NCBI GenBank assembly: GCA_022827625.1
Contig: JAJEIE010000033.1
Coordinates: forward strand, 186,001 to 250,000
Reading direction: 5' to 3'
Length of the DNA: 64,000 bases
From: Candidatus Poribacteria bacterium
GTDB lineage: Bacteria > Poribacteria > WGA-4E > WGA-3G
Position numbers and translations under genes: made by a program. This document shows positions 25,191 to 30,612 of the stretch, in pieces; position 1 is the stretch's first letter, and each line of letters begins with the position of its first letter. The notes below the pieces were generated by a model. It searched no databases, was not told the DNA's origin, and worked only from the letters and a program-made list of their open reading frames with translations.

Positions 25191-27179
25191 ATGCAATTTC
25201 TGAATCCTGCCGCGTTTTATCTGTTAGGTGCAATTCCGATTGTCGTGTTCTTGCACTTCTTGAAGTTGCGCCGTTATACCTACCTTGTACCGAGTATCAT
25301 GCATTGGCTATCCACCGACGAGGATCGGAGAGCGAATGTCCCGTTCCAACGGCTTCGGCATCTACTTCTCCCGCTTCTACAAGTGCTTTTTTTGCTGCTC
25401 CTTACGTGCAGCGTGGCGCGTCCTATATTGCGTAGACCTGGATTCATACCGAGAAAGGCGATTCTCATTGTCGATAATTCTGCGAGTATGTTGTCCGCGG
25501 AACTGGGGCACTCTCGTCTCACACTCGCAAAGGCGGCGGCCTCGGAGCAGGTGGCGCAAATCTCTGCGGGTGGCGGGATCATGCTCATGACGACGCAAGA
25601 GCCTGGCAGTTATATCCAGCAAGCCTTCACGACTGATATCGCGCAACTCCAACACGCTATAGAAAATATCACGCCAACCCACGCACCCCGCAATCTCCGT
25701 CCGGTTTTTGACGCTGTAACCCGCTACAGCGACTCACCACAAGACCAAGTCTTTTTTATCAGCGATACCTTTGAGAATTTACCAGACCTCCCGCTGCCAC
25801 TCCATAAAATCGCTGTCGGCACCGATGCCGCAAATATCGGTATTGTTCTCTTCAGCGTTGCCCGCGTCCAAGATCAATACGAAGTTCTGGTTGGCATCCA
25901 AAATTTCACACAGACACCCAGAGAATTCAACGTTCAATTGGTAGTGGAAAACTCGCCTCTTGATGACAGGACAGTCGCTATTCCGCCACGGACGACCCAA
26001 TCAGTGCTTTTTTTTGGGGATCCAAGGGGTTTAGCGGGAAAAGTTATCAGTGTCCACCTCGGAATAGAAGACGATTTTTCGCTCGATAACAGTGTCTCCG
26101 CAATCCTATCGGATGTATCACCTTTGAAAATTTTACTCGTCAGTGACAATCAGCAATCTCTGCTGCCTGAGCTACTGCGTGCGTACGGGAACCGTGTCGA
26201 TTTAGACGTAGTGCTCCCCACAGATTATCACGGGACGGGTGATGCCGATATAGCGGTTTTTGATGGTAGCACGCCTGCGGGGCGTGAAGCATTCGGTAAT
26301 TTTTCTGAGATCCTTCCCAGAACGGGGATGATTTTTATCAATCCAGGCAGCGACCTACCTTTCATTTCTGCAAGCGGAAAAGCAGAGAAGCCCAACACAC
26401 CAGAACTTGTTAGAATTAACCCTAAACCGCTGTGGAACGAAGTGGAACAGCGACCAGATTTAATAGTTAAAAAAAGTGGACCTACACGCGTTATCAGAAC
26501 AGATGTGGCGCATCCACTCATGGCGGATGTCTCATTACAAGGGTTACAAGTGCGGGAATCTATGTATCGAGACCTACCCATCTGGGGACATTCGCTTGTT
26601 GAGACAGAGAGGGGTTCGCTGATCTGGCTCGGAAACCCCGAAGTCGACACGCAATTGCTCGTTTTCGAGTTTGATGCCTTCAATCCAGAAATATCCACGT
26701 TCGCGGTGTCTATACCGGGACCGCTGTTTGTCTATCAGTGCTTAGCGTGGTTTGAGGCAGGGGCTGCCCCGCTTCAGCCCCTTGGGTCTCAGGCGGGGAG
26801 GACTCGGCACGCATTCAGAACCGGAGAAGAGGTTATCATCGCCTTGGAAAACAGGGATATGCCGTTTCGCGTCCAAAAACCGGATGAAACGATGGTCGCG
26901 TTAAACAATGCAGTATTCACAGAGACTGATCTCGTGGGTGTCTACAGGCTTTTCGCCGCTGACGGAAGGGAATTGGAGCGGTTCACAGTCAATCTGCTGG
27001 ATACTGCAACGTCCACGCTCTCTCATGCGACAACAATAGAAACGGAAACGGAAGACGTTTCAGCATCCCTTGAAACCGATTTGCAACCGATGGCGCAGGA
27101 GATGTGGCGTTTCCCGGCACTGCTTGCGTTGATTGTTTTGCTTGTGGAGTGGTGGTTTTATCATCGGGAGCGGCTGTGA
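25191..27179 (+). CDS. BatA/VWA-domain membrane protein
   Basis: The 662-residue protein has the N-terminal BatA domain: a first helix MQFLNPAAFYLLGAIPIVVF, LKLRRYTYLVPSIMHWL and a second helix near residues 57-75. A von Willebrand A-like domain follows with the metal-site start LIVDNSASML near residues 95-104 and FISDTFENLPDL. A last transmembrane helix lies near residues 640-658. This architecture is common in Bacteroidetes, Planctomycetes and Poribacteria next to MoxR ATPases, though no MoxR gene is here. The role is unknown, perhaps in envelope stress or complex assembly. The central part is probably periplasmic. The start ATG has a weak ribosome site. Confidence 0.85.
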   Translation: MQFLNPAAFYLLGAIPIVVFLHFLKLRRYTYLVPSIMHWLSTDEDRRANVPFQRLRHLLLPLLQVLFLLLLTCSVARPILRRPGFIPRKAILIVDNSASMLSAELGHSRLTLAKAAASEQVAQISAGGGIMLMTTQEPGSYIQQAFTTDIAQLQHAIENITPTHAPRNLRPVFDAVTRYSDSPQDQVFFISDTFENLPDLPLPLHKIAVGTDAANIGIVLFSVARVQDQYEVLVGIQNFTQTPREFNVQLVVENSPLDDRTVAIPPRTTQSVLFFGDPRGLAGKVISVHLGIEDDFSLDNSVSAILSDVSPLKILLVSDNQQSLLPELLRAYGNRVDLDVVLPTDYHGTGDADIAVFDGSTPAGREAFGNFSEILPRTGMIFINPGSDLPFISASGKAEKPNTPELVRINPKPLWNEVEQRPDLIVKKSGPTRVIRTDVAHPLMADVSLQGLQVRESMYRDLPIWGHSLVETERGSLIWLGNPEVDTQLLVFEFDAFNPEISTFAVSIPGPLFVYQCLAWFEAGAAPLQPLGSQAGRTRHAFRTGEEVIIALENRDMPFRVQKPDETMVALNNAVFTETDLVGVYRLFAADGRELERFTVNLLDTATSTLSHATTIETETEDVSASLETDLQPMAQEMWRFPALLALIVLLVEWWFYHRERL

Positions 27180-27246
27180 GAGACGCAGGCTGACAGCCTA
27201 CGCTACAAAGACTAAGAACGCAGGCTGACAGCCTACGCTACAAAGA
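27180..27246. repeat. Two tandem family D palindromes
   Basis: ACGCAGGCTGACAGCCTACG followed by CTACAAAG, twice in a row (27183-27213 and 27216-27246). Stem AGGCT-GAC-AGCCT. Confidence 0.9.
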
Positions 27247-27254
27247 TGCTAATA

Positions 27255-27280
27255 AAAAAGGGCGGATACGCAATCCGCCC
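27255..27280 (-). terminator. Rho-independent terminator of the dockerin-thioredoxin operon
   Basis: Stem GGGCGGAT/ATCCGCCC with loop ACGCA. On the minus strand it is followed by a run of T (plus-strand AAAAAA at 27254-27259). It lies 29 bases past the stop of the minus-strand gene ending at 27309. Confidence 0.8.
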
Positions 27281-27308
27281 TATAGTCTTGATAGGTTCCT
27301 GTTTTTCC

Positions 27309-28916
27309 TTATTTGTTTACAGCATTGAGAATATTCTGCAGAAGCTGACCTTTCGTCATCACTCCCGCAAAACGTTCGACATCCTTTCCATCTTTGAACA
27401 CAATATAAGTCGGATGTCCCCTGACGAGATATTTTCGATGTGTTTGCGGACCCTCGGCAATACTCACTTTCGCAACGGCAAATGTATTCCGATTCTCTGA
27501 AGCAATTTGGGCGACAACTGGCGCCATCCTTTGGCAGAAGGGTCACCCATCCTTCCAGAATTCAAGCACGACAGGCACCTCTGATCCGAGCACGAGAGTA
27601 GCGAAGTTGGCATCGTTGACTGCAAATGGGATGCCAGAGGTTCTACTTTCAGTCGTAAAGGTGATGTTGAGATCGGTTTCGTTGCCTGCAGCGTCGCTAA
27701 CTTTCCCTGCGATAACGTAGGTGGTCCCGCTGTCAAGTTCTTTGCCCTTGACGAGTTCGAGAATTCCTTTTTTACCGTCAACTTCGCCGAGCCAACCGAC
27801 ATCAACGCCTGCTGGCGTTTGCAGTGCGATGTTCCCAGTTACCTCTTCATCAAAATCAATTTCAATCCGTGCCCGAGTGTTAACCACATCAGACTTAATG
27901 TCCTTGTCACCATCACTGACGGTCCCGCCTGTAATTCGAGGTGCGTCGGTATCGGGTGTACGGATGACATAAGTCAGCGTTTGGGATCCATCCGACCAAG
28001 TGATTGTCAAAGCGAGGGGACCCGGATCAAACGGACCCGTGATTTCCACAAACCTTCCAGTGGTTTCTGCAACACCTGTAGAGACCGTAACGTCCTCTGG
28101 TCTTCTGTCGAAAGTGAGCGCAATCGTATCGTCACCATCAAGCGTCGCGCCGGCTGCCGGTCTTGCCCTGACAAACGCGACAGGCGATCTGACAGTATAG
28201 GTAAGCGTTTGGGTGCCATCCAACCACGTGACCGTCAAGGCGAGCTCCCCCGGATCAAAGGGACCTGTAATTGTCACGGCTTTGTCGGTGATTGTGGCAG
28301 TGCCTATGTTGACCGTAACGTTCTCGGGTGCGTTATCGAAAGTAAGCGTGATGGTGTCGTCCATATCAAGGTTCGCACCGTCTACCGGTCTCGACCTGAC
28401 GAACGTCGCAGGTTGTCTAACCGTATACGTGAGTGTTTGGCTTCCGTCCTTCCACGTGATAGTCAAGGTAAGATCACCTGGATCAAAGGGACCTGCAATT
28501 GCCACGGTTTCATCAGCGATTGTGGCGACCCCTGTGCTTACTTCAACGTCCTCTGGGGCGTTATCAAAGGTAAGCGTAATGGTCCCCTCAACCTCAAGCT
28601 GCGACTCAGCCACTGGGTTTGCACTGACAAACGCCACAGGCGGACGCACGGTTTTTCCCATCTGTCCGGCAACGAGGACCAAGTCGAGGATATTGACAAT
28701 ACCGTCTCCGGTGACATCTGGATTCGGCAGCTGATCTGCTGCGACTGCCTTGCCAAAATGTGAGGCGATAAACGTGATATCCAAAATGTCTATCGTTCCA
28801 TCGGCATTAATATCAGCGGCTCTCAAGGTATCAAGATTCGTCTCTTGGGCGTGACCTGTGGTCAGGCAGAGCAGGGTTAAACCGAGTATGAGGAACGGGT
28901 AAATTATTTTTTTCAT
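27309..28916 (-). CDS. Secreted dockerin-thioredoxin selenoprotein candidate (UGA recoded)
   Basis: Read through one in-frame TGA (27543-27545) the gene encodes 535 residues. These comprise a signal peptide (residues 1-23), a dockerin pair (ADINADGTIDILDITFIASH and DVTGDGIVNILDLVLVAGQM), three Ig-like repeats of about 73 residues each (DTITLTFDNAPENVTV-type strands, TITGPFDPG), a Big_5-like domain and a thioredoxin domain. The TGA is codon 458, in VLEFWKDG-U-PFCQRMAPVV, the first position of the redox motif UPFC; the cis-proline motif RGHPTYIVF follows. The frame is otherwise intact on both sides, and the downstream gene has the same UGA at the same place. Selenocysteine is the best reading. 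A plain stop would leave the protein ending just before its active site. Confidence 0.8.
27522..27545 (-). promoter_or_regulatory. Possible bacterial SECIS hairpin after UGA-458
   Basis: Directly 3' of the UGA the mRNA can form TGCCA-AAGGA-TGGCG (27522-27536), a 5-bp stem with one G-U pair and a loop containing GG. Loop guanines are usual in bacterial SECIS elements, but the distance of 11 bases from UGA to loop is shorter than in E. coli fdhF, so the assignment is tentative. Confidence 0.4.
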
Positions 28917-28942
28917 TTTTAAAACTCCAAGAAAATTCTGGC

Positions 28943-29551
28943 TTATTCGGTTTCTTCAATCTCTAAAATGCCGAGAATGCGTTGTACCAATTCAGCCTTG
29001 GGCATTGCGCCAGCAAAGCCTCCTATAAGCTCACCCCCCTCAAATAGAATATAAGTCGGCGTTCCCCGAATTTGGTATTCCCTTGTTTTTTCCGGTTGCG
29101 TATTTACATCCAATTTGACGAAACTGAAGGTATCACGGTATTCCAATGCGACTTCTGCGACCACCGGTCGCATGAGTATGCAAAACGGTCAGGTATCGTC
29201 TTTAAATTCTACCACAATAGGCAGCTCAGAACCCAAAACAATCTCGTCAAAAGTTGCGTCCGTGACTTCAAAAGGGATACCCGATTTTTTACCGAAATGG
29301 CTTGCGACTAATGTTAAGTCGAGAATATCGACAGTTCCATCTCTATTAACATCGGCGGCAGAAGGTTGATTTCCGATCAGCGTCTCACCGAAGTGGGTAG
29401 CAATGAGGGTTAGATCGAGGATGTTTACAGTGCCGTCGGCATTGACATCAGAAGCGCTCAAAGGGTCGAAGTCGACATCTTGGGCGTAGCTCAAGGTCAC
29501 ACCAATCAACATGAGGCTTGCTGTTAGCAAAAAACAGACGAATTGTCTCAT
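28943..29551 (-). CDS. Secreted dockerin-thioredoxin selenoprotein candidate, short paralogue
   Basis: Read through TGA at 29189-29191 this encodes 202 residues: a signal peptide (MRQFVCFLLTASLMLIGVTL), a dockerin pair (DVNADGTVNILDLTLIATHF and DVNRDGTVDILDLTLVASHF) and a thioredoxin domain. The TGA is codon 121, in VVEFKDDT-U-PFCILMRPVV, aligning exactly with codon 458 of the next gene; the cis-proline block RGTPTYILF follows. The start at 29551 has GGAG five bases upstream, and an ATG directly before it is possible. The upstream neighbour is a UroD/MtaA-like gene 20 bases away, so the three genes probably form one operon. The protein is expected to be exported, perhaps bound to a cohesin-bearing surface, and to carry out thiol or selenol redox chemistry. 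Confidence 0.8.
29164..29191 (-). promoter_or_regulatory. Possible bacterial SECIS hairpin after UGA-121
   Basis: Immediately 3' of UGA the mRNA reads CCG-TT-TTGCAT-ACTC-ATGCGA-C-CGG (29164-29188), a two-part stem of 3 and 6 pairs (one G-U) with a small internal loop. The apical loop ACTC lacks the G expected for SelB binding, so this is only suggestive. Confidence 0.4.
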
Positions 29552-29571: not shown

Positions 29572-30612
29572 TTATGCGTGTGGGCGGTGCCATTCTTGGA
29601 CCGCTTCTGGGATGGCTTGAAGGTTTTCGATAGTTGTTTGTAATGGAATCGCGCACTCCGGTCCAATGAGTGGAACACCTGCTTCAAGATTTTTCAGGAC
29701 CTCTGCCTTAACGTCTCCCGGTTCTTTCGCAAACAACGTTTCAGGATTGTTGATATTGCCAACGAGGGCGATACGCTCTTGCACAATCTCCATCGATTCC
29801 TGTGGCTCATTTTTAGAGTCATAGTGGAACGCTGCCATCCCGGTCTGTGCGATGTACTCCATTCGATCAACTGTACGTCCACAGATATGCAAGATTAAGG
29901 GAATCGGGATCCGTTCAACGAATTCAATATGGAGGTCTCGGAGGTAGCGATGGTAGTATTCTCCACTGACGAGATCACCAGTAGCGTGGTCCGGAAGGGT
30001 GAGAGCGTCGGCACCTGCCTCGATTTGTGCGATCCCGAATTGGACAGTCGCTTCCTTCATCCGATCGAGTGCGAGTTTTGTCTTACCAGGATCGTCAAGA
30101 GACAACAGGAGAAACGGCTCAACACCGAAGCAGTGGTAACCGAGTGACCAAGGTCCCATCGTCTTTCCGATGACAGCGACTTCGTCTCCATATTCTTTTT
30201 TCAGGATTTTAATCGCTTCAAGGACACACTGGGTATCTGGATGCGTCAAGAAATCGTTAGGAATTGTGATGTCATCAACATCCTCCCAGATGGGTTCACG
30301 CATCTTAACAGTGGGCCAGTTGTCCTTCTGCTCCCACTGGATTTTGCACCCCAACGCACTCGATTCCTGGATGATTGAGAAGACCGGCATGATAGAGTCG
30401 AATCCGAGTTCGGTGTATCCTGTCGCAGCGAGGCGCGCCATGCGTTCGGGTTCCCGATTTGCTTGTGGGAAAGGGGCATCGACGAGATCCATGAGCTCAA
30501 CGGTCGCGACAGATGTAGGATTGCAAACCGGTGTACGATCGGTGGGTTCATTGCGTAGGGCGGCGAGGACACGTTCACGACCCGTCATGGATTTGATAGT
30601 TTGATTTTGCAC
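29572..30612 (-). CDS. Uroporphyrinogen decarboxylase/MtaA-like methyltransferase
   Basis: The 346-residue TIM-barrel protein of the UroD superfamily begins MTGRERVLAALRNEPTDRTP at its second Met. It has zinc-ligand blocks LILHICGRTVDRM (His-x-Cys) and LIGPECAIPLQT, which mark the MtaA/cobamide methyltransferase branch rather than true HemE. It also has GNINNPETLF. I infer transfer of a methyl group from a corrinoid or another one-carbon step. No corrinoid protein lies beside it. It is the first gene of an apparent operon with the two dockerin-thioredoxin genes. Confidence 0.85.
   Translation of the reverse strand: MQNQTIKSMTGRERVLAALRNEPTDRTPVCNPTSVATVELMDLVDAPFPQANREPERMARLAATGYTELGFDSIMPVFSIIQESSALGCKIQWEQKDNWPTVKMREPIWEDVDDITIPNDFLTHPDTQCVLEAIKILKKEYGDEVAVIGKTMGPWSLGYHCFGVEPFLLLSLDDPGKTKLALDRMKEATVQFGIAQIEAGADALTLPDHATGDLVSGEYYHRYLRDLHIEFVERIPIPLILHICGRTVDRMEYIAQTGMAAFHYDSKNEPQESMEIVQERIALVGNINNPETLFAKEPGDVKAEVLKNLEAGVPLIGPECAIPLQTTIENLQAIPEAVQEWHRPHA

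Follow-up and report, generated by a model that had tools for sequence, protein, structure and literature searches.

Two adjacent genes in the window (the whole stretch of DNA that was analysed, 64 kb) very probably encode selenoproteins. Each reading frame is interrupted by a TGA codon at the place of the attacking cysteine of a thioredoxin domain (UPFC). The selenoprotein reading of the original prediction is supported by the selenocysteine (Sec) machinery of the genome, by hairpins following the codons, by homologues with cysteine at this position and by conservation of the UGA itself. The catalytic domain is of a known kind, and the exported, dockerin-linked pair appears, provisionally, to be uncatalogued. 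The two genes and their putative Sec codons are:

28943–29551, reverse strand: gene 1, encoding a predicted signal peptide (MRQFVCFLLTASLMLIGVTLSYAQ), a type I dockerin and a selenocysteine thioredoxin, 202 aa (translation, Pfam)
27309–28916, reverse strand: gene 2, encoding a predicted signal peptide (MKKIIYPFLILGLTLLCLTTGHAQ), a type I dockerin, Ig-like domains (Big_5) and a selenocysteine thioredoxin, 535 aa (translation, Pfam)
29189–29191, reverse strand: predicted Sec-UGA codon of gene 1 (U121, UPFC), shared by the sampled intact orthologues of the same genus and replaced by TGC or TGT in syntenic sister-genus orthologues
27543–27545, reverse strand: predicted Sec-UGA codon of gene 2 (U458, UPFC) (translation, orthologue comparison)

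The genes are separated by 26 nt. Translation with TGA as Sec gave one TGA per frame, with the rest of both frames open, and the codon is embedded in the motifs EFKDDT-U-PFC (gene 1) and EFWKDG-U-PFC (gene 2). Re-translation thus placed both TGA codons at the first cysteine of a CPFC motif, where they had been predicted. The cis-proline blocks and full thioredoxin C-termini claimed to follow were also found, as TPTY in gene 1 and HPTY in gene 2, with complete frames. The claim that the frame resumes five codons later was wrong; a single codon, the TGA, interrupts it. When both strands of the window were scanned in six frames for TGA codons preceded by at least 100 open codons and followed by at least 70, genes 1 and 2 were the sole interrupted frames.

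The original prediction called for a search for selA, selB, selC and selD, and all four were detected in the window's own genome. The tRNA-Sec, with anticodon TCA, scored 78 bits (cut-off 47), a full SelB gene directly upstream of it scored 348 bits (cut-off 242), and SelA and SelD scored 520 and 362 bits. SelD itself contains an in-frame TGA:

1399–2442 of L012 (G000:C40), strand not given: SelD with an in-frame TGA in VKCAGUASK, probably a selenoprotein itself

The U of the CAGU motif is at the usual Sec position of SelD. Across the phylum, 72 of 85 genomes had a tRNA-Sec match above the cut-off. None was detected in four metagenome-assembled genomes (MAGs) of the same genus and three more of the same family. 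These absences are probably assembly gaps, because four of the seven MAGs keep a SelB over the cut-off and the remaining three are the least complete (73–83%).

With this machinery, SelB and tRNA-Sec would insert selenocysteine at the UGA under the direction of a hairpin that lies within the coding sequence a short way past this codon. Published rules for bacterial SECIS elements specify a loop of 3–9 nt with G in the first two loop positions, a stem of 4–16 bp, a distance of 16–37 nt from the UGA and a minimum free energy of at most −7.5 kcal/mol (PMC13188914). Hairpins compatible with these rules were found after both codons, clearly for gene 1 and marginally for gene 2, as the proposed SECIS check was meant to establish:

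29147–29182, reverse strand: bacterial-SECIS-like hairpin of gene 1, inner stem GCGACC/GGUCGC, apical loop GGU 23 nt after the UGA
27510–27525, reverse strand: core of the gene-2 hairpin resembling a SECIS, GGCG(C)C-AGUU-G(U)CGCC, whose loop starts 23 nt past the UGA

The full 36-nt hairpin of gene 1 has a predicted energy of −15.6 kcal/mol. Among 21 distinct gene-1-type sequences, 94% of the pair cells were standard, compared with 20–79% for slid pairings and 47% in Cys homologues, and compensatory changes (C-G to A-U, G-C to A-U) were present. A shifted hairpin, CUGU-GGUC-ACAG, is possible in a gene-1-type subgroup, where it is 97% paired. The longer hairpin of gene 2 reaches −7.6 kcal/mol in the window copy, with one mismatch. 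Pairing in the gene-2 group was 85%, the C-U mismatch being replaced by A-U in four sequences, and the energies (mean −6.3, mean z −0.23) were hardly better than those of synonymous shuffles. Tested against such shuffles, energy was positive for the gene-1 group and not for the gene-2 group or the Cys controls. The putative SECIS element of gene 2 is thus weak by energy, and the case for it rests on synonymous constraint: diversity in the gene-2 group was 0.07 at codons +5 to +13 against 0.38 elsewhere, the lowest value of the whole domain. The corresponding dip in the gene-1 group was slight (0.38 vs 0.41) and confined to codons +9 to +11. In that group synonymous diversity was lowest, below that of the SECIS stretch, at the codons immediately preceding the UGA (EFKDDT; window 29192–29215). 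An Rfam search of the 64-kb window returned nothing at gathering scores.

The domain assignment of the original prediction, a dockerin joined to a thioredoxin, was borne out in both genes. Gene 1 scored 51.1 bits for Dockerin_1 and 68.0 bits for Thioredoxin, and gene 2 scored 33.0 bits for Dockerin_1, 53.2 for Big_5 and 66.5 for Thioredoxin (Pfam cut-offs 22.9 bits for dockerin type I, PF00404, and 23.5 bits for Thioredoxin, PF00085). The dockerin has two Ca-binding repeats, with DxNxDG in most relatives. No NCBIfam model was over its cut-off for either protein; the thioredoxin equivalog TIGR01068 (cut-off 96.8) gave 62.7 and 68.0 bits for the pair. In the predicted structure of gene 1, the thioredoxin half has pLDDT values mostly of 80–92 and superimposes on E. 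coli thioredoxin with a TM score of 0.89 by target and an rmsd of 1.2, and the dockerin half is less certain. The model of gene 2 consists of a low-confidence start, beta domains at about 96–422 and a thioredoxin fold at 431–534. Judged by eye and with a simple pattern, both N-termini have a basic start, a hydrophobic core and an A-x-A-like end (...SYAQ/DV and ...GHAQ/ET). Signal-peptide-like N-termini and dockerin repeats were nearly always found in relatives whose fetched stretch includes the 5' end. We infer from these features that both proteins are exported.

After export and removal of the signal peptide, the product would be a Ca-binding dockerin module with a thioredoxin domain carrying a U-P-F-C site. 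The selenothioredoxin may act as a fast reductant of disulfides or in a peroxide pathway, fed across the membrane by DsbD, and would probably serve exported peroxiredoxin-like proteins that carry Sec. We give this reductant role about an even chance. DsbD is the usual electron supplier outside the cytoplasm, and the genome encodes one, with a C-terminal thioredoxin-like domain. The same selenoproteins might instead catalyse oxidative or isomerase-like disulfide exchange, as DsbA and DsbC do. The exported location would suit such a role, and so would the varied middle residues of the U-x-x-C motif in relatives (UPFC, UIYC, UGFC, URFC and others), since the middle residues of CxxC-type motifs tune the redox potential in the thioredoxin fold. 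The best family and fold matches of the pair are reductive thioredoxins, however, not DsbA, and together with the presence of DsbD this makes an oxidative or isomerase function unlikely, though it is the alternative that we take most seriously.

Candidate clients of a reductant are encoded in the same genome. At least five AhpC-TSA/TlpA-type genes have in-frame TGA codons at redox positions, and four of them have export or lipoprotein signals by eye. Counting SelD and the window pair, the genome has at least eight Sec genes. A dockerin ORF with one TGA at C21:156293 was considered as a further Sec gene and rejected; its TGA is the normal gene end. The most economical story would be an exported, selenium-based system of thiol peroxidase and disulfide reductase. 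Among the genes concerned is a signal-peptide-bearing double-peroxiredoxin fusion (L146/L147, G000:C33:194389-195207) with a TGA at each peroxidatic position (TGGU, GTGU), probably an exported selenoprotein with two Sec residues. Four others (L148, L150, L151, L156) are of the AhpC-TSA/TlpA type with one in-frame TGA each (GTU-ANC, TWU-PNS, WU-PFC, WU-GC), and three of them look exported or lipoprotein.

The dockerin might bind a cohesin encoded by the genome itself, which would locate the enzyme in the envelope or extracellularly, or it might serve only as a Ca-binding module. Seven cohesin matches were found in the genome, six of them in ORFs that also have an adjacent dockerin match. True cohesin docking by the dockerin seems doubtful to us. 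A more elaborate proposal, which we regard as a long shot, is an extracytoplasmic selenium redox complex in which selenothioredoxins, tethered by their dockerins to envelope proteins that bear cohesins, keep exported selenoperoxiredoxins in the reduced state. If true, this would be a use of the dockerin–cohesin interaction new to us, and it would explain the frequent Sec genes of sponge symbionts. Dockerin-type matches number about 45 genome-wide.

The UGA could also work as a selenium-dependent switch: at low selenium, translation would end at the UGA and yield for export a dockerin alone (gene 1) or a dockerin with Ig-like domains (gene 2); when selenium is available the thioredoxin would be completed, and both products would matter. 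Termination competes with Sec insertion in general, and the UGA follows shortly after a complete N-terminal module, within the catalytic domain. The truncated form would, however, end in a partial thioredoxin domain, there is no sign of selection on such a product, and orthologues with Cys at this locus yield the complete protein in every case. We consider a switch quite improbable and prefer the simple reading of the pair as selenoproteins.

That reading agrees with the distribution of the codon among relatives, the named ones being MAGs of Candidatus Poribacteria, bacteria of a type associated with sponges. In a search of 85 poribacterial genomes, one TGA was present in nearly every same-genus orthologue of gene 1 and in the majority of those from elsewhere in the family. 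A short gene of the gene-1 type next to a long one of the gene-2 type is a recurrent arrangement among relatives, and conservation of the pair extends over a whole bacterial family. From the fetched loci, covering dozens of genomes, 76 distinct usable domains were extracted; the codon was TGA in 65 and TGC or TGT in 11, so that only U or C occurs there. None of the 65 Sec domains contained a second TGA. The motif is U/C-x-x-C, with variable middle residues (UPFC 30, UIYC 14, UGFC 5, UPSC 5, URFC among others). Cysteine at the UGA position, which the original prediction had proposed to look for, was found in homologues that include same-locus orthologues: in genus g2 between the methyltransferase and a BatA-like gene (L124, L125), and in some g4 members beside the BatA-like gene (L129, L130). 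The g2 and g4 genomes with Cys orthologues retain SelB and tRNA-Sec. The tree, built from a short alignment and with many open forks, requires at least four Sec/Cys switches.

Judged by codon comparison, the frame 3' of the TGA is under purifying selection. The median dN/dS after the TGA was about 0.12 in gene-1-type and about 0.45 in gene-2-type sequences, the latter probably an overestimate, since synonymous sites in that stretch are under constraint too. A reading of the pair as pseudogenes or sequencing errors, with the TGAs as real or artefactual nonsense changes of TGC/TGT, could appeal to the single base that separates these codons, to the large share of MAGs in the data and to one relative (L131, G048) whose gene 1 looks disrupted upstream of the site, but it has next to no probability, given that the same TGA recurs in both paralogue groups and in dozens of assemblies made independently, that selection 3' of it is purifying and that the Sec domains lack any further stop. 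The UGA is retained in independent assemblies of many species. In the L131 copy (G048:C79) the thioredoxin half is kept, with unrelated sequence just upstream of the second cysteine and the UGA lost; this copy looks rearranged or mis-assembled.

If TGA were generally reassigned, for instance to Trp or Cys, or leakily suppressed, the full frames would likewise be read, yet this is hardly credible: many normal genes here end in TGA, the interrupted long frames of the window are so only at redox Cys positions, the genome has dedicated Sec machinery, and wherever homologues have another residue it is Cys. Among 39 non-overlapping ORFs of at least 180 codons in the window, 11 end at TGA, one being the Sec codon of gene 2 and ten ordinary ends, in line with the earlier judgement that reassignment is unlikely.

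Selenoproteins of the UxxC thioredoxin type form an accepted family (PMC9312934, PMC13188914). The known Sec thioredoxin (PF00085, UxxC; WP_010956703.1; PMC9312934, PMC13188914) shares with the pair the fold, Sec for the first Cys of CxxC and a SECIS directly downstream, whereas the poribacterial proteins add a putative signal peptide, an N-terminal dockerin (with Ig-like domains in gene 2), the arrangement as an adjacent pair and sub-cut-off NCBIfam thioredoxin scores. UGC-containing TlpA-type/redoxin selenoproteins (PMC13188914) also have a thioredoxin fold, and relatives of them occur in the same genome, but they belong to the AhpC-TSA/redoxin Pfam family, have another motif and lack a dockerin. 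Cellulosomal dockerin proteins (PF00404) share the duplicated Ca-binding DxNxDG repeat, and cohesin domains are present in the poribacterial genome; the poribacterial dockerin differs in being N-terminal and beside a redox enzyme rather than a glycoside hydrolase.

Dockerin is absent from a selenoprotein review (PMC13188914). In a literature search with thin coverage of subscription journals, we found no paper joining selenoprotein, dockerin and thioredoxin, and none linking Poribacteria with a selenoprotein. This is consistent, within the same partial coverage, with the original remark that the combination is not known from described families. No relative of the pair was found in viral contigs, and a plasmid search gave only matches below 60% identity, ordinary thioredoxins where named.

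The pair would add to the list of selenoproteins a family-wide architecture, an exported UxxC thioredoxin linked to a dockerin and encoded at one conserved locus, and it suggests an extracytoplasmic redox system based on selenium. Sec and Cys have been exchanged naturally at this locus in genomes that all retain the Sec machinery, which provides clean comparisons for studying the advantage of Sec. Slaby et al. (PMC5649159) noted SelA and SelB together in most bins of sponge symbionts and their absence from most related references; the pair and the exported Sec-peroxiredoxin-like proteins are concrete candidates for their purpose. Automatic annotation will split or truncate both genes.

Two further features flank the pair:

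29572–30612, reverse strand: MtaA/CmuA-type methyltransferase (NF004889 261.9 bits, TIGR01463 246.1 bits, both over cut-off)
27259–27281, reverse strand: intrinsic-terminator-like hairpin, 9-bp stem and T tail, 28 nt after the true stop of gene 2

The methyltransferase gene, 20 nt from gene 1, is probably the first gene of the transcription unit of genes 1 and 2. It adjoins the pair in nearly all named relatives, with 92–98% identity. Despite this conservation it was rejected as a functional partner, with no signal or redox link seen. Terminator-like matches in the region overall are at chance level.

A third clade of Sec thioredoxins (UGFC/UGAC/UGVC; L122, L133, L135, L136, L137) carries a lipobox-like N-terminus and lacks a dockerin. 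A Cys (CPFC) paralogue lies 5–9 kb from the third-clade gene in four of the five fetched loci (L122, L133, L136, L137). Directly 3' of the operon terminator, at window 27175–27245, are repeated TAGCGTAGGCTGTCAGCCTGCGT units.
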